NCBI GenBank assembly: GCA_025355995.1
Contig: JANXYQ010000015.1
Coordinates: 1 to 51,654 of the forward strand
From: Spirochaetaceae bacterium
Lineage (GTDB): Bacteria; Spirochaetota; Spirochaetia; Treponematales; Rectinemataceae
Direction of reading: 5' to 3'
DNA: 51,654 nt
Below the pieces are notes generated by a model, which did not search any database, was not told the origin of the DNA, and saw only the letters and a program-made list of their open reading frames with translations. Both the position numbers and the translations under genes were made by a program. Positions within the stretch are counted from its first letter, which is position 1; each line of letters opens with the position of its first letter. Below, in pieces: positions 2,215-8,665 of the stretch.

Positions 2215-4035
2215 ATGGCTGGACTGAGGATGTCGCTTCGCGTGAGGCTACTGTCCGGATTCCTCGGAGTCGCCGCCATCGGCTTGGCCGGCAACGGGAT
2301 CGGCCTCGCGGGGCTGCTGAGCACCGGCGCCATCGCGTCCGGGCAATATCAACGCGTCACGCTGCCCGCGGCTAGCCTCATGAAGGTGTCTAGCGCTTTC
2401 CAGCGGATGGCCACGGGCATTCGCGACGTCATCATCGCGGACAACGATTCGGATCTAGGCAGGGCGGCGTCCTACCTCGACGCCCAGAAGGGCGACATGG
2501 AAAGCGCCATGGCCGAATACCTCGGCGGGGCCATCACGGCCAACGACAAAACGCATTTCACGGATTTCCAGGCCAAGCTCGGCATCTATACCCGGAGCAT
2601 CGATTCGCTCGCGGCTAAGGTCCAGGAGGGCGACAAAACCGGCGCCGGCACCACGCTCAAGGTCCTTCGGGGCCAGGCCGTGGGCCTGCAGACGATCATC
2701 GACGGGCTCAACGACGGCATAGGAACCATGGCGGCCTCAGGGGCCAAGATCGCCGCCTCGCGGGTGGGGGGAGCCACCGCGAGCTTCCTCGCCTTCGCTG
2801 TCGCGAGCCTGGCCCTGTCTATAGCGTTCGGCCTCTTCATGTCGCGCTCCATCAGCGCCCCGATCCGCGCGATGGTCGCGCTCGCCGGCGCCATCGCGGA
2901 AGGCGACCTGACGGGAGAGCTCGACCGGAAGGTCCTGGAGAGGGGCGACGAGGTCGGGGGCCTGGCCTCTGCGATCGCCTCGATGAAGGAAGGCATCCTC
3001 GGCAATATCGGGCAGATCAAGACGGTGACGGCCAGCCTCGGCGCGATGGGCGAGGCGCTCGGGCGCAACGCGGTCGCCGCCTCGGGCGCGGCCGCCGAGA
3101 TCGCGTCGAGCGTCTCCTCGGTCAAGGAGAAGGTGCAAGACCAGGGTTCCGGCGTGACGGAGACCTCGGCGACGATCGAGCAGATACTGAAGAGCATCGG
3201 GGGGCTCGACGCCCAAATCGAGGACCAGGTCGAGAGCGTCGGCCGGTCGTCGGCGGCGGTCGAGCAGATGGTCGCGAACATACGCGCGGTCACGGGGAAC
3301 GTGGAGCTGCTGGGGGCCTCGTTCACCGAGCTCTCGAGCGCCTCCGAGGCGGGCAAGGGCATGATCGAGGACATGAGCTCGCGTATCTCCTCCATCGCCA
3401 GCCAGTCGGAGAAGCTGGACGAGGCCAACGGGGTGGTGAGCAACATCGCGACCCAGACCAACCTGCTCGCGATGAACGCGGCGATCGAGGCGGCCCACGC
3501 GGGCCAGTTCGGCAAGGGCTTCGCCGTCGTGGCCGACGAGATCCGCAAGCTCGCCGAGATAGCGGCCGAGCAGTCGAAGGAGATCTCCGCGGACATAGGC
3601 GGCATCAAGCAGACCATCCAATCGATGGTCCCCTCCTCCGAGGAGACCTCGAGGTCCTTCGCCGAGATCTTGCGCCTCATCGGCGCCCTAGGCTCCATGG
3701 AGGCCGAGATAAAGCGGGCCATGAGGGAGCAGAGCGAGGGCTCGCGAGAGGTCCTCGAGGCCATAGAGAGGATCAACTCCGTCACCGCGAGCGTGCGTCG
3801 AGGCTCGGCGGAGATCCGGGAAGGGAGCTCCGCCATAGCCGTCGAGATGCGGGACCTGCTCGAAGGCTCGGTGGCGCTCGGTTCGGCGATGGAGCGCATC
3901 GAGCGCGTCGCGGCGGGCGTGGAGGGCGTCTCCGAGGACATGCGCTCCATCTCCGGGGAGGCGAGCGGCCAGGTCCGCGCCCTCGTCGAACGCTTGGATT
4001 GCTATACGATCCCCGAGGCCTGCGTCGAGCGCTAG
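2215..4035 (+). CDS. Methyl-accepting chemotaxis protein
   Basis: A 606-residue transmembrane chemoreceptor. TM1 is at about residues 12-36, followed by a periplasmic sensor region of about 150 residues, probably a four-helix bundle. TM2 is at about 184-208, a HAMP domain at about 209-262, and a long coiled-coil signalling domain completes the protein. The signalling tip is well conserved: [20 protein letters not shown] (residues 411-430) followed by [14 protein letters not shown]. It would control CheA and flagellar rotation. I see no C-terminal CheR-binding pentapeptide. The ATG is preceded by GAGGGAGG. It is transcribed alone, between a terminator and a convergent operon. The ligand is unknown. 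Confidence 0.95.
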
Positions 4036-4049
4036 GCGCCTCATTTTAT

Positions 4050-4110
4050 GCGGTTTCGCCACAAATAATTATACGAAACCGCTGGTAAGGCTCGCTTCGC
4101 GAGCCTTACC
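4050..4110. terminator. Two adjacent hairpins between convergent genes
   Basis: The first inverted repeat is GCGGTTTCG (4050-4058) with CGAAACCGC (4074-4082) around an AT-rich loop. The second is GGTAAGGCTCGC (4084-4095) with GCGAGCCTTACC (4099-4110), a 12-bp stem with a 3-nt loop. The TAA stop of the minus-strand response regulator (4106-4108) lies inside the second stem. There is no clear T-run on either side, so this is probably a bidirectional, non-canonical end for both converging genes. Confidence 0.6.
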
Positions 4111-5449
4111 GAAGGCCCAGCTCCTTGATCTTCCGCGAGAGGTTGTTCGGCAGCAGCCCGAGGAGCTCGGCCGCGCGCGCCACTGAGCCGTCGGCCTCGG
4201 CCAGCGCCGTCGCCACGTAGGCACGCTCGAAGTCGTCCTTGGCTTCGGCGAGGCTCTTCGCCACCGCGGCCGGGGGGCGGGGGACGGCGGCCCTCGGGCC
4301 CAAATCCAAGCCCGATAAGTAGGACGCGTCGATCCGGGAGCCCTGCGGAGCGAGCCATAGGGCGCGCTCGAGGAAGGCCCGCAGCTCCCGGACGTTGCCC
4401 GGCCAGGGCCTGACCTCGAGGTAATCGAGGGCGCCCTCGCCGAGCTCCGGGGCGAGCGCGCCCATCTGCGCGCGCATGGGGGCCGAGAGGAAGGCCGCGA
4501 GGCCGCGTATTTCCCCGCGCCGGTCGGCGAGGGGGGGGAGGGCGACCTGGGCCTGCGCGAGGCGCCAAAACAGGTCTTCCCGGAAGCGCCCGCCCGAGAT
4601 CTCCTCCCGGAGGTCCCGGTTCGTCGCGGTGACGATGCGAGCGTCGGCGCGGTGGGACGACTCGGCCCCGACGCTCTGTATCTCCCCCGTCTCGACGGCA
4701 CGGAGCAGCGAAGCTTGCAGGGCGAGGCTGGTCTCCCCGACCTCGTCGAGGAAGAGGGTGCCGCCCGACGCCGCCTCGAAATAGCCCTTCCTGTCGGAGC
4801 TCGCCCCCGTGAAGGCCCCCTTGCGCGAGCCGAAGAAGGCGCTCTCCGCGAGCTCATCGGGGACGGCCGCGCAATTGACCGCGACGAAGGGACCCTGGGC
4901 CCTCGGGGAGCAAAGGTGGATCCACCGCGCGACGAGCTCCTTGCCCGAACCGGTCGGCCCGGACACGAGAATCGACAGCGGCGACGCGGCCGCCCTCCGC
5001 GCGGATTCGAAGGCCTCGGCCAGGGCGGAGCCCTCCTCGACGTAGACGTGCTCGGATAGCCAGGCCTCGCGCAGCGCGTCGAGCCTGCGCAGGGTCTCGG
5101 ACTCGCGCTCGAGGTTGCGGAGGATGGCTACCAGGCGATCGGTGTCCAGCGGCTTCTCCAGGAAGTCGTAGGCTCCCCTGCGCACGGCGGCGACCGCGTC
5201 CTTCACGCTGCCCTTCCCGGACATCATGATGAGCGGCGCCGAGTCGCGGCGCTCGGTCCCGAGGAGGTCGGCGCCGTTCTCGGTCCCGAGGTAGACGTCC
5301 ACGAGGAGGGCCCCGAAGTTCCCGCTTTCCATGGCCGCCCGGGCAGCCGCGAGGTCCCCAACGCCCAGGGCCTCGTGGCCCGAGAGCCCGAGGAAGGTCA
5401 CGATGCCCTTGCGGACGTTCTCCTCGTCGTCGACTACGAGCACTCTCAT
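4106..5449 (-). CDS. Sigma54-dependent response regulator (NtrX/NtrC-like)
   Basis: A 447-residue transcription activator. The receiver domain (residues 1-120) has the acidic pair DDE at 7-9 and phospho-acceptor D51. An AAA+ domain follows, with Walker A GPTGSGKE (164-171), an intact sigma54-contacting GAFTGA loop (211-216) and Walker B GGTLFLDEV. A Fis-type helix-turn-helix at the C-terminus (GSVARAAELLGLLPNNLSRK) would bind enhancer DNA. It should be phosphorylated by the kinase encoded just upstream, whose stop overlaps this start (ATGA, 5446-5449). I chose the ATG at 5449 because the receiver begins right there; the same frame stays open much further upstream, but only as a shadow of the kinase gene. 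The operon has its own sigma54-type promoter near 8012-8027, suggesting autoregulation. Confidence 0.93.
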   Translation of the reverse strand: MRVLVVDDEENVRKGIVTFLGLSGHEALGVGDLAAARAAMESGNFGALLVDVYLGTENGADLLGTERRDSAPLIMMSGKGSVKDAVAAVRRGAYDFLEKPLDTDRLVAILRNLERESETLRRLDALREAWLSEHVYVEEGSALAEAFESARRAAASPLSILVSGPTGSGKELVARWIHLCSPRAQGPFVAVNCAAVPDELAESAFFGSRKGAFTGASSDRKGYFEAASGGTLFLDEVGETSLALQASLLRAVETGEIQSVGAESSHRADARIVTATNRDLREEISGGRFREDLFWRLAQAQVALPPLADRRGEIRGLAAFLSAPMRAQMGALAPELGEGALDYLEVRPWPGNVRELRAFLERALWLAPQGSRIDASYLSGLDLGPRAAVPRPPAAVAKSLAEAKDDFERAYVATALAEADGSVARAAELLGLLPNNLSRKIKELGLR

Positions 5450-6711
5450 GAGGCCTCCCCCTTCCCCGCCAGCGCCATCGGTATTCGAACGCGGGCGCCG
5501 AGCCCGCGGGAGTCGCCCTCGCCCGCCGCGAACAGCTCGAGGCTCCCGCCCTGCGAGGCGAGGATCCTGCGCACTAGGACCAGGCCGAGGCCCGTGCCCG
5601 CCTTCTTGGTGCTGACGCGCTCGCGGCCCAGCCTCGGGACGAGGTCGGGATCGATGCCTCGATTCGAGTCGAGGACCAGGACGGTCGCGGTCCCTCCCTC
5701 GGCCTCGACCCTGACTTCGATCGAGACGGGCGAGCCTTCGGTCGACCTGGGGCCTTCGCTCGAGGCCTCGATGGAATTGGCGAAGATGTTCCAGAAGGCC
5801 TGCTCGAGCAGGCCCCTGTCGGCGGCGACCCTTAATCCCGAAGGGTCGCCTGTGACCGAGACGGACTCGGGCGCGATTATCCTGACCGAGGCTCCGGATC
5901 GCTCGGCGCGGCTCGCGAGGGAGGCGAGGAGGGCGAGGAGGTCCGACTCTCCCGAAGCGCCGTAGGCGCCGAGGCCGGCAGGCGCGAGGTCGCGGAAGCG
6001 GTCGATCAGGGCGCGGAGCCTCTCGGCCTCGGCCCTGGCGATCTCCAGACTCTCGCGCGCGAGCTCGATCCGTGGCGAGCGTGGCTCGCCGAGGGCCAGC
6101 GAGCCGTTTTCCGCGGCGAGGAGGACGGCGGCGAGTGGGTTCTTGAGCTGGTGGGCGAGGAAGGAGGCGACCTCCCTCCAGCCCTCGAGCCGCGCGGCCT
6201 CCGCGAGCCTCGACTCCTGCTCGTCGGCCAGGTCGAGGAGCTCGTTCAGCGCGCTCGCCACGGCGTCGAGCTCGGGATCCGAGGAGCGCTCGAAGCGCCT
6301 CGACCTGTCGCCCTGGGCGACCACCGCCCCGGCCGCGAGCTCGCCGAGGCCCCTGGTGATGACGCGGGAGAGGAGGAAGAAGGCTAGGGCGGCCGCGACG
6401 AGCACGGCCGCGAGTATGGCGGCGACTTCCAGGGCGAGGCGGACCACCGCGTCCTTCCCCATGACGCGCGCCTGGGCGAGCAGGGCGCGAGCCGCGATGA
6501 GGGATTCCGCGGCCTCGTCGAGGCGGAGGGCCGGGTCGGCGCCCGCGTCTATCGCGCGCCTGGCCGCCGCGCCGAGCAGGGCCTCGGCCTCGGCCGGAAC
6601 GCGCCGCGCCGAGTCGAGCCCCACCGCCTCGTAGATCGCGGCGACGCCGACGGCCATCACGGCCAGCCCGATGCAGGCGAAGAGCAGGGCGAAGCGGGCC
6701 CTCGTGCGCAT
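5446..6711 (-). CDS. Membrane sensor histidine kinase (NtrY-like)
   Basis: A 421-residue sensor kinase. TM1 is at about residues 7-27, followed by a short external segment of about 65 residues, TM2 at about 92-115, a HAMP-like linker, and the H-box EVASFLAHQLKNPLAA with phospho-acceptor H187, similar to NtrY kinases. The ATPase domain has an N-box (WNIFANSIEAS, about 307-317) and a GTGLGL box (372-377). The G1 box reads DSNRGID (348-354) where DxGxG is usual, so its first glycine is replaced. It lies between a DUF4390-like gene, which abuts its start, and the sigma54 regulator it probably phosphorylates. Gene order DUF4390-kinase-regulator is also known for ntrYX in proteobacteria. The signal sensed is unknown. 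Confidence 0.9.
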   Translation of the reverse strand: MRTRARFALLFACIGLAVMAVGVAAIYEAVGLDSARRVPAEAEALLGAAARRAIDAGADPALRLDEAAESLIAARALLAQARVMGKDAVVRLALEVAAILAAVLVAAALAFFLLSRVITRGLGELAAGAVVAQGDRSRRFERSSDPELDAVASALNELLDLADEQESRLAEAARLEGWREVASFLAHQLKNPLAAVLLAAENGSLALGEPRSPRIELARESLEIARAEAERLRALIDRFRDLAPAGLGAYGASGESDLLALLASLASRAERSGASVRIIAPESVSVTGDPSGLRVAADRGLLEQAFWNIFANSIEASSEGPRSTEGSPVSIEVRVEAEGGTATVLVLDSNRGIDPDLVPRLGRERVSTKKAGTGLGLVLVRRILASQGGSLELFAAGEGDSRGLGARVRIPMALAGKGEAS

Positions 6712-7260: not shown

Positions 7261-7977
7261 TTATTGGTTGCCCGAGGCGTAGAGGGCGTCGCGCGTGGAG
7301 AGGTAGCGCTGGTAGAGCCGCTCCTCGGGCGTCCTCGTGAAGAGCGACGTGATGCTCCCCGCCATGCCCCAGCTCGAGCCTTGCAGGGAGTTGAGGAGGC
7401 CGTCGCTCCAGGTCCTGCCCTGCGCGGAATTGATCCCCGCCGTGATGCCGCAGGCGATGATCGGGACGAGGAGGCCGGAGACGAAGGACGTTATGCGACG
7501 CTCCTTGCCTCGGTCCGCCTGGTAGCGGAGCACGGAGGCGGCCATGGCCTCCTGGACCTCCGAATCCCTCTCCTCGAAGACGTCCGCGTATATCGCGCGA
7601 TAGTCCTTGATCGGGACCGAGGAGACGATCGATCCCGAGAGGATCAGGGCGGCGCCCGTGATCCCGAAGCCCAGGGCGAGGTTCTGCTTGAGCTCCGGAT
7701 CCAGGGGATCGCCGGTGACGTTGCGCGATATCGCGTCGCCTCCGAACCAGGAGAGGGCGGAGCCCGCGAGCGAGACGGCCCCGCCGCTGTAGAGGACGGT
7801 CTCGGCTATCGTCTTGCCTCGCCGGGCCTCGGTCATGTAGTTGTCCGCCCACGTCGAGAAGAGGCGATAGGCGATCTGCGGCTTGCCGTCGGAAAACTTG
7901 ATGGCGGGCAGGCTCTGGCTGAAAGCCATCGCCGAAGATAGGCAGGCGATGACGAGGACAGGTACTATTCTGCGCAT
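7261..7977 (-). CDS. Hypothetical exported membrane protein, first gene of the sigma54 operon
   Basis: A 238-residue protein of unknown function. It has a signal peptide (MRRIVPVLVIACLSSAMAFS) and then at least three hydrophobic, glycine/serine-rich segments (about residues 65-80, 105-125 and 165-185) separated by charged stretches, so it is probably membrane-bound with an exported part. I placed the start at 7977 because GGAGG (7984-7988) lies 6 bases before that ATG and the signal peptide begins there; the frame runs further up to 8028 without a better site. It is followed after 12 bp by the DUF4390-like gene, so it probably belongs to the same signalling unit. Confidence 0.75.
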   Translation of the reverse strand: MRRIVPVLVIACLSSAMAFSQSLPAIKFSDGKPQIAYRLFSTWADNYMTEARRGKTIAETVLYSGGAVSLAGSALSWFGGDAISRNVTGDPLDPELKQNLALGFGITGAALILSGSIVSSVPIKDYRAIYADVFEERDSEVQEAMAASVLRYQADRGKERRITSFVSGLLVPIIACGITAGINSAQGRTWSDGLLNSLQGSSWGMAGSITSLFTRTPEERLYQRYLSTRDALYASGNQ

Positions 7978-8011
7978 AGGAAACCTCCAAAGGATTGTCT
8001 GCCCTCTATTA

Positions 8012-8027
8012 AGCAAGTCCCATGCCA
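8012..8027 (-). promoter_or_regulatory. Sigma54 (RpoN) promoter of the NtrYX-like operon
   Basis: On the minus strand the site reads TGGCATGGGACTTGCT. The consensus is TGGCACG-N4-TTGCW. The -24 GG and -12 GC are exactly 10 bases apart, and 10 of the 11 conserved positions match. A start near 8001 would leave a leader of about 24 nt that contains the GGAGG of the gene at 7977. The operon encodes a GAFTGA-type sigma54 activator, which supports the call. Confidence 0.75.
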
Positions 8028-8092: not shown

Positions 8093-8120
8093 TTTCACGG
8101 ACGGAATCGGCGGCTATCAT
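8093..8120 (+). promoter_or_regulatory. Possible luxS promoter
   Basis: TTTCAC (8093-8098) and TATCAT (8115-8120) are spaced by 16 bp. This is a modest sigma70-like match whose -10 overlaps the first CTATC element of the dyad cluster, so a protein bound there could block it. No stronger promoter is visible before luxS. Confidence 0.35.
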
Positions 8121-8171
8121 TTTAGATAGTTCTATCGTCTATGATAGTAGCACGACTACCAGGTACTATCA
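8114..8171. promoter_or_regulatory. Cluster of GATAG/CTATC dyads between the sigma54 operon and luxS
   Basis: Five CTATC or GATAG elements lie at 8114, 8125, 8132, 8143 and 8166. They form overlapping inverted repeats: CTATCAT/ATGATAG (8114-8120, 8141-8147), GATAG-TT-CTATC (8125-8136) and TGATAGTA/TACTATCA (8142-8149, 8164-8171). They lie 30-87 bp before the luxS start and about 90-160 bp upstream of the sigma54 promoter. They could be operator sites for luxS, enhancer sites for the sigma54 activator, or an RNA switch in the luxS leader. Confidence 0.5.
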
Positions 8172-8200
8172 ATTTTGATATGGTCAAAGGCGGAGGGCAT

Positions 8201-8665
8201 ATGGAACTGAGGAAAATCGCGAGCTTCCAGGTCGACCACCGGAAAATGGGCAGGGGGATGTTTATCTCGAGGACGGACGGGGACATCGTTACCTACGACA
8301 TCAGGATGAAGAAACCCAACGCCGACCCTGTCCTGCGGAACGGGGCCCTCCATACGATCGAGCATCTCTTCGCCACCTACGCGCGGAGCTCGGAGCTCTC
8401 CGACAAGGTCGTCTACGTCGGCCCGATGGGCTGCCGCACGGGCTTCTATCTGCTCGTCCGCGATCTCCCCCGCGTCCGGGCGATCGGTCTCGCGCGCGCG
8501 AGCTTCGCCTTCATCGCCGCCTTCGAGGGGCCGATACCCGGAGCCTCCGAGGCGGAGTGCGGCAACTGGAAGGACCACGACCTCGCCGGCGCCAGGGCCG
8601 AGGCGGTTGAATACCTGGGCGTCCTCGAGTCCTGGACCGAGGCGAGGCTGGAGTATCCCTCGTGA
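8201..8665 (+). CDS. luxS: S-ribosylhomocysteine lyase (autoinducer-2 synthase)
   Basis: LuxS cleaves S-ribosylhomocysteine to homocysteine and DPD, the precursor of AI-2, in the activated methyl cycle. The 154-residue length is normal. The metal-site motif HTIEHL gives H51, E54 and H55; GCRTG contains the catalytic C78; ECGNW gives the metal ligand C120. The start at 8201 is preceded by GGAGGG (8192-8197) and yields MELRKIASF, the usual N-terminus; an upstream in-frame ATG at 8141 would add 20 unlikely residues and lies within the dyad cluster. The stop overlaps the GTG start of the GH29 gene (GTGA), so a fucosidase is translationally coupled to luxS. No mtn/pfs gene is in this window. Confidence 0.96.
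   Translation: MELRKIASFQVDHRKMGRGMFISRTDGDIVTYDIRMKKPNADPVLRNGALHTIEHLFATYARSSELSDKVVYVGPMGCRTGFYLLVRDLPRVRAIGLARASFAFIAAFEGPIPGASEAECGNWKDHDLAGARAEAVEYLGVLESWTEARLEYPS

Follow-up and report, generated by a model that had tools for sequence, protein, structure and literature searches.

Does the four-gene operon at 7977-4106 of this spirochaete contig, which ends in a gene for an NtrC-family response regulator, form a closed circuit in which the regulator switches on its own operon? The window analysed here, that is, the whole stretch of 51,654 nucleotides, holds the four genes head to tail, co-directional and tightly packed, with candidate regulatory elements upstream (Table 1). We consider it highly probable that the operon constitutes a self-contained sigma-54 signalling cassette under positive autoregulation, switched on by its own regulator. 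The evidence and the alternatives are described below.

Table 1. Features of the operon and of its upstream region, in coordinates of the window
Feature	Position	Strand	Remarks
Two inverted repeats, terminator-like, at the operon end	4050..4110	-	4084-4110 and 4050-4082; common to a convergent MCP gene
Gene 4, NtrC-family response regulator	4106..5449	-	Receiver + AAA+ (GAFTGA at 211) + Fis-type HTH, LPNNLSRK
Gene 3, membrane histidine kinase	5446..6711	-	HAMP + HisKA (H187, HQLKNPL) + HATPase
Gene 2, DUF4390-like protein, 178 aa	6712..7248	-	Ig-like beta-sandwich model
Gene 1 (cargo), exported, mostly helical membrane protein, 238 aa	7261..7977	-	No Pfam family over cut-off
Ribosome-binding site GGAGG	7984..7988	-	Read in the sequence
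Predicted transcription start	8001	-	From spacing: 12 nt after the C at -12
Sigma-54 -24/-12 promoter element TGGCATGGGACTTGCT	8012..8027	-	Sequence read, genome pattern search, shuffles, conservation
Enhancer palindrome copy 1 TATCATTTTAGATA	8115..8128	.	Promoter-proximal; 87-nt gap to the -24 element
Enhancer palindrome copy 2 TATCGTCTATGATA	8133..8146	.	
Enhancer palindrome copy 3 TATCAATTTTGATA	8167..8180	.	Adjoins the luxS start

The starting point is the minus-strand element in front of gene 1, which lies exactly where the initial annotation had placed it, retains GG-N10-GC and has a single mismatch to the sigma-54 consensus TGGCACG-N4-TTGCW, in agreement with the near-complete RpoN match that had been claimed. 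The 24-nt leader with GGAGG, from the predicted start to the ATG at 7977, was likewise read correctly. This element is the sole match with at most one mismatch in the window, where 0.23 are expected; 18 of 100 shuffles of the window contain at least one such match, and, judged within the window alone, the match is only suggestive. With two mismatches allowed, the pattern is not above chance in the window (2 found and 3.43 expected), and for this reason the match is not the sole basis of the case.

Support from outside the motif comes at several levels. The host genome encodes RpoN (E 4.5e-55), and the suggested genome-wide scan for further -24/-12 sites recovered 8 strict sites, the one in the window included, compared with 1 in the reversed control. 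Others of these strict sites precede genes for type III glutamine synthetase, a SHOCT protein, an FAD-binding protein and small exported proteins, a sensible set for sigma-54. One of these sites (L026, contig C103) precedes genes for an MCP-domain protein and a small exported protein, and an NtrC-type activator is encoded on the same contig; another (L029, contig C133) is located between an activator gene and the type III glutamine synthetase gene. When the stretch between the enhancer and the ATG of the operon studied here was shuffled, an equally good site appeared in 1 of 2000 cases. Across the 15 promoters of the same operon that were read (14 genomes and the additional locus L154), the core TGGCA + TGC is invariant, and alignment on the site yields TTGGCACG-N4-TTGCT. 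The corresponding shuffles of each promoter produced an equally good site in 0-5 of 2000 cases for 13 promoters, in 21 of 2000 for G080 and in 99 of 2000 for G045, whose site is weak and counts against the autoregulated cassette. Five upstream regions aligned without motif guidance have 24 invariant columns besides the ATG, of which 19 belong to one enhancer copy or the -24/-12 site.

The enhancer itself, overlooked in the initial annotation, consists of three TATC-N6-GATA palindromes at 8115-8180. None of 100 shuffles reached the three copies that are present in the window, and, within the 4.5-Mb genome, the tandem pair is confined to the region before this operon (reversed control, 0). Pooling the 33 copies from the 15 promoters gives the consensus CTATCR-N4-YGATAG, with gaps of 50-158 nt between the enhancer and the -24 element, so that the palindromes, read as activator sites, would be upstream at looping distance. 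Single copies do not delineate a wider regulon: across the 24 genomes searched, the strict palindrome CTATCRNNNNYGATAG is about as frequent as expected by chance, and the own genome has 3 sites, one of them at this operon, compared with 2 in the reversed control. Single-copy targets are thus indistinguishable from chance, and we claim no further target; the regulon of the cassette is predicted to be a single-target one.

The same stretch contains the evidence for two other readings of the upstream region. A sigma-70-like hexamer pair with 9 of 12 matches, where 0.1 are expected in the region, is found on the minus strand at 8172-8144, as would be the case if a sigma-70-type promoter drove the operon and the -24/-12 match were a chance relic. 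However, the pair overlaps the enhancer palindromes, and its hexamers are partly composed of them, whereas the -24/-12 core is kept in all 15 promoters and is rarely produced by shuffles. As an account of the operon, this alternative is therefore extremely improbable; the pair could nevertheless give basal or alternative transcription. The second reading is a mixed-sign operator, in which the regulator would activate the operon and at the same time block the divergent luxS gene, which would couple envelope signalling to AI-2 and methyl-cycle metabolism. Palindrome copy 3 separates the operon from luxS, whose likely ATG at 8202 is about 20 nt away, and, in a relative from the same genus (G001, L078 3631-3674), the array also adjoins a divergent luxS. 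Yet, of the 7 operon genomes compared, only 2 have luxS as a neighbour of the operon. Control of luxS can therefore not be the core function, and no luxS promoter was identified. A mixed-sign operator, which is compatible with the autoregulated cassette, appears somewhat unlikely.

The encoded proteins fit a membrane signalling unit. The description of the gene 1 product as an exported membrane protein is consistent with its signal-like N-terminus and its helical structural model (mean pLDDT 79.5); a fold search returned no PDB match at E <= 0.001. For gene 2, the label "DUF4390-like" holds insofar as DUF4390 (PF14334) is the best Pfam match, but the score of 15.7 bits is under the gathering cut-off of 27. 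The homologues in L154 (21.4 bits) and in a second copy in G010 (25 bits) also remain below it, and no member scanned exceeds the cut-off, with most having no match whatever, a shortfall that counts against the proposed cassette. The gene 2 model is an Ig-like sandwich (pLDDT 86.8) with a short N-terminal helix, and no segment is above the hydropathy threshold used. The fold search for gene 2 likewise gave no PDB match at E <= 0.001; its best rows are mostly Ig-like sandwiches with Z of 7.5 or less, none of them outstanding, and the fold searches for both proteins were left out of the functional assignment. Gene 2 is located directly 5' of the genes for the kinase and the regulator. The kinase has two membrane segments separated by about 55-70 residues, a weak HAMP match, a HisKA domain with HQLKNPL and a HATPase domain, and the Pfam scan detected no PDC family in it. 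In the regulator, the GAFTGA loop is intact, as claimed, and the "NtrX/NtrC-like" assignment stands at the family level (receiver, AAA+ domain with GAFTGA, Fis-type HTH). At the equivalog level, it fails, with NCBIfam scores of 309.1 for NtrX (NF051870, cut-off 600) and 323.8 for NtrC (TIGR01818, cut-off 558.6). The segment LPNNLSR at the C-terminus of the regulator, the predicted recognition segment, is invariant in all 12 aligned sequences and is absent from the 11 other activator stretches of the own genome that were read, two of which are cut or internal (two further activators gave none).

The distribution of the enhancer was followed by several routes. Of 58 genomes, 6 (counting the own genome) have gene 1 homologues, which in 5 of them are preceded by a -24/-12 site and palindromes. 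The sixth, G018 (L084), has a lone gene 1 homologue on a 4.7-kb contig, with neither enhancer nor -24/-12 site nor gene 2, which contradicts the notion that gene 1 always has this promoter. A DNA search for the palindrome pair among 390 genomes of the order matched 39. Among the 20 newly fetched pair loci, 7 have the operon, with a -24/-12 site between the enhancer and gene 1, and 13 lack the operon; near the pairs of the latter, there are few -24/-12-like matches, which reach merely 13-14 of 16 positions, none attaining 15-16 of 16. Together with 7 genomes read previously, this makes 14 genomes with the pair, a GG-N10-GC site and then the operon. A gene 2 profile of 12 rows, to which the second G010 cassette and L154 contributed one each and G001, G065, G071, G095 and G077 none, matched 16 of the same 390 genomes. 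These are precisely those 14 plus G077, where the contig ends inside gene 1, before the promoter, and G143, a marginal match with no kinase or regulator beside it. The credible gene 2 genomes number 15 of 390, the 14 pair genomes and G077.

The other 25 of the 39 genomes with pair hits do not have this system. Fourteen of them (G031 and 13 others) were read and lack the operon; among the remaining 11, judged on the pair pattern, ten resemble short-period coding repeats, mostly with 21-nt steps, and G114 resembles G132, and none of the 11 is among the gene 2 profile matches. Two loci from a looser pair search (G053 and G054:C394) have no operon beside the pair either. Runs of TATC-N6-GATA with 21-nt steps occur in another family (G160, G188, G273, G336, G279, G118, G344 and others) and look like coding repeats rather than enhancers.

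In a third route, the C-terminus of the regulator was compared with named genomes, and 80 of the 94 loci were kept. LPNNLSR is present in 12 of the 80, all spirochaete assemblies by title: nine have a perfect pair, the pair of L154 contains one mismatch, the L143 locus is cut off upstream and L139 lacks a pair. Among the 68 loci that lack LPNNLSR, 2 have the pair. L139, an LPNNLSR regulator with no pair, is a point against the autoregulated cassette. Most of the 12 loci come from organisms already represented in the other sets, and the three routes therefore do not sample independently.

A conserved site combined with a unique enhancer that tracks both the regulator and its recognition segment is the pattern expected of positive autoregulation. 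Accordingly, the proposal of the initial annotation is supported at the sequence level by the presence of rpoN, the conservation of the site in 15 of 15 promoters, the unique tandem enhancer and its association with the regulator and LPNNLSR. An alternative is that the sigma-54 promoter is genuine and the array is bound by another activator, in which case the operon would belong to a different regulon with no autoregulation. The own genome encodes 14 strong PF00158 activators (bEBPs), another of which could bind the array, and co-occurrence in related genomes is no proof of binding. However, the array is found solely before this operon in the own genome and tracks the regulator of the operon and gene 2 over 390 genomes, whereas further targets would be expected if a separate activator were at work. 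We regard binding by another activator as decidedly improbable.

The autoregulated cassette would operate as follows. A signal, probably from the cell envelope, would reach the membrane kinase encoded by gene 3, with the DUF4390-like gene 2 protein as a probable accessory that biases kinase versus phosphatase activity. The kinase would phosphorylate the NtrC-type regulator encoded by gene 4, which, in its phosphorylated form, would bind the tandem TATC-N6-GATA palindromes. Assembly of the AAA+ ring of the regulator and DNA looping would then bring about opening by the sigma-54 polymerase held at the -24/-12 element. The predicted output is positive: the exported membrane protein encoded by gene 1 would be made in larger amounts, and so would the sensor and the regulator.

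Three known systems resemble parts of this arrangement. ZraPSR of Escherichia coli (zraP / zraSR, sigma-54) also combines an exported accessory protein, a membrane kinase and an AAA+ NtrC-family regulator, ZraR. According to the account given in PMC8249747, ZraR in in vitro selection bound mainly the spacer between zraP and its own operon, a conditional single target, and autoregulation was inferred. By analogy, the cassette described here may be nearly self-contained: its enhancer pair is unique to its own operon in the own genome, with single-copy targets not separable from chance. Unlike ZraPSR, which consists of two divergent units, the genes here form a single co-directional four-gene operon, with an extra DUF4390-like gene and a private TATC-N6-GATA enhancer, and the Pfam scan assigned gene 1 to no family.

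In PlrP-PlrSR of Bordetella, a DUF4390-type protein is likewise encoded just 5' of an NtrYX-family kinase and regulator. In PMC13001219, PlrP is proposed to be a third component that restrains the phosphatase activity of the kinase, and such a DUF4390 third component was recently proposed for the beta- and gamma-proteobacterial NtrYX systems. On this analogy, gene 2 may tune the kinase. The same source describes the beta-proteobacterial NtrX as missing the AAA+ domain, and PlrP-PlrSR as having rsmB upstream, internal promoters instead of an operon and a PDC sensor domain. The cassette, in contrast, has an AAA+ domain with GAFTGA, a sigma-54 promoter and an enhancer, with no rsmB and no PDC match, and its gene 2 is under the DUF4390 cut-off.

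The NtrYX and NtrBC systems share the domain order of the regulator and provide the best NCBIfam matches of gene 4, which nevertheless scores far below the equivalog cut-offs, and no sign of a nitrogen role was seen. A survey (PMC12316311) predicts sigma-54 promoters before ntrC-ntrB and ntrY-ntrX, and hence, going by that survey, the principle is already known; what is added here is the gene combination, the enhancer and the distribution of the enhancer. Among the titles found by literature searches on sigma-54 regulation in spirochaetes or Treponema, none concerns this operon, and we claim its absence from the literature only within those searches.

The cassette plan is not tied to one cargo. 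The place of gene 1 is taken in G045 and G054 by a gene for a different exported protein with no Pfam match, so the TATC-N6-GATA version is found with two unrelated-looking cargoes, this protein and the helical membrane protein. A DUF4390 search of 146 genomes gave one match, the additional G010 copy, which is under the cut-off. This copy belongs to a second cassette (L232, 3292-7760), where a -24/-12 site is located 23 nt before genes for two exported proteins, followed by a DUF4390-like gene, a kinase and an AAA+ regulator. The second G010 cassette has no TATC palindromes; TGACAC-N6-GTGTCA at 3151-3168 of the same locus may be its enhancer. The same plan is repeated here with other cargo and, presumably, another enhancer.

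In these uncultured spirochaetes, sequence alone is enough to match promoter, enhancer, activator and cognate operon with one another, and the predicted pairing of the LPNNLSR segment with CTATCR-N4-YGATAG is testable in vitro. The locus also suggests that the DUF4390 third component has distant relatives beside AAA+ regulators in another phylum. Tentatively, as something just short of an even chance, we propose that spirochaetes possess a family of self-amplifying, cargo-swapping sigma-54 cassettes, in which a PlrP/DUF4390-like third component, a kinase and an AAA+ regulator accompany one or two exported envelope proteins and the enhancer code is private to each cassette. If this is true, the third component of the PlrP type would extend beyond the proteobacteria and would not depend on a regulator that lacks the AAA+ domain.
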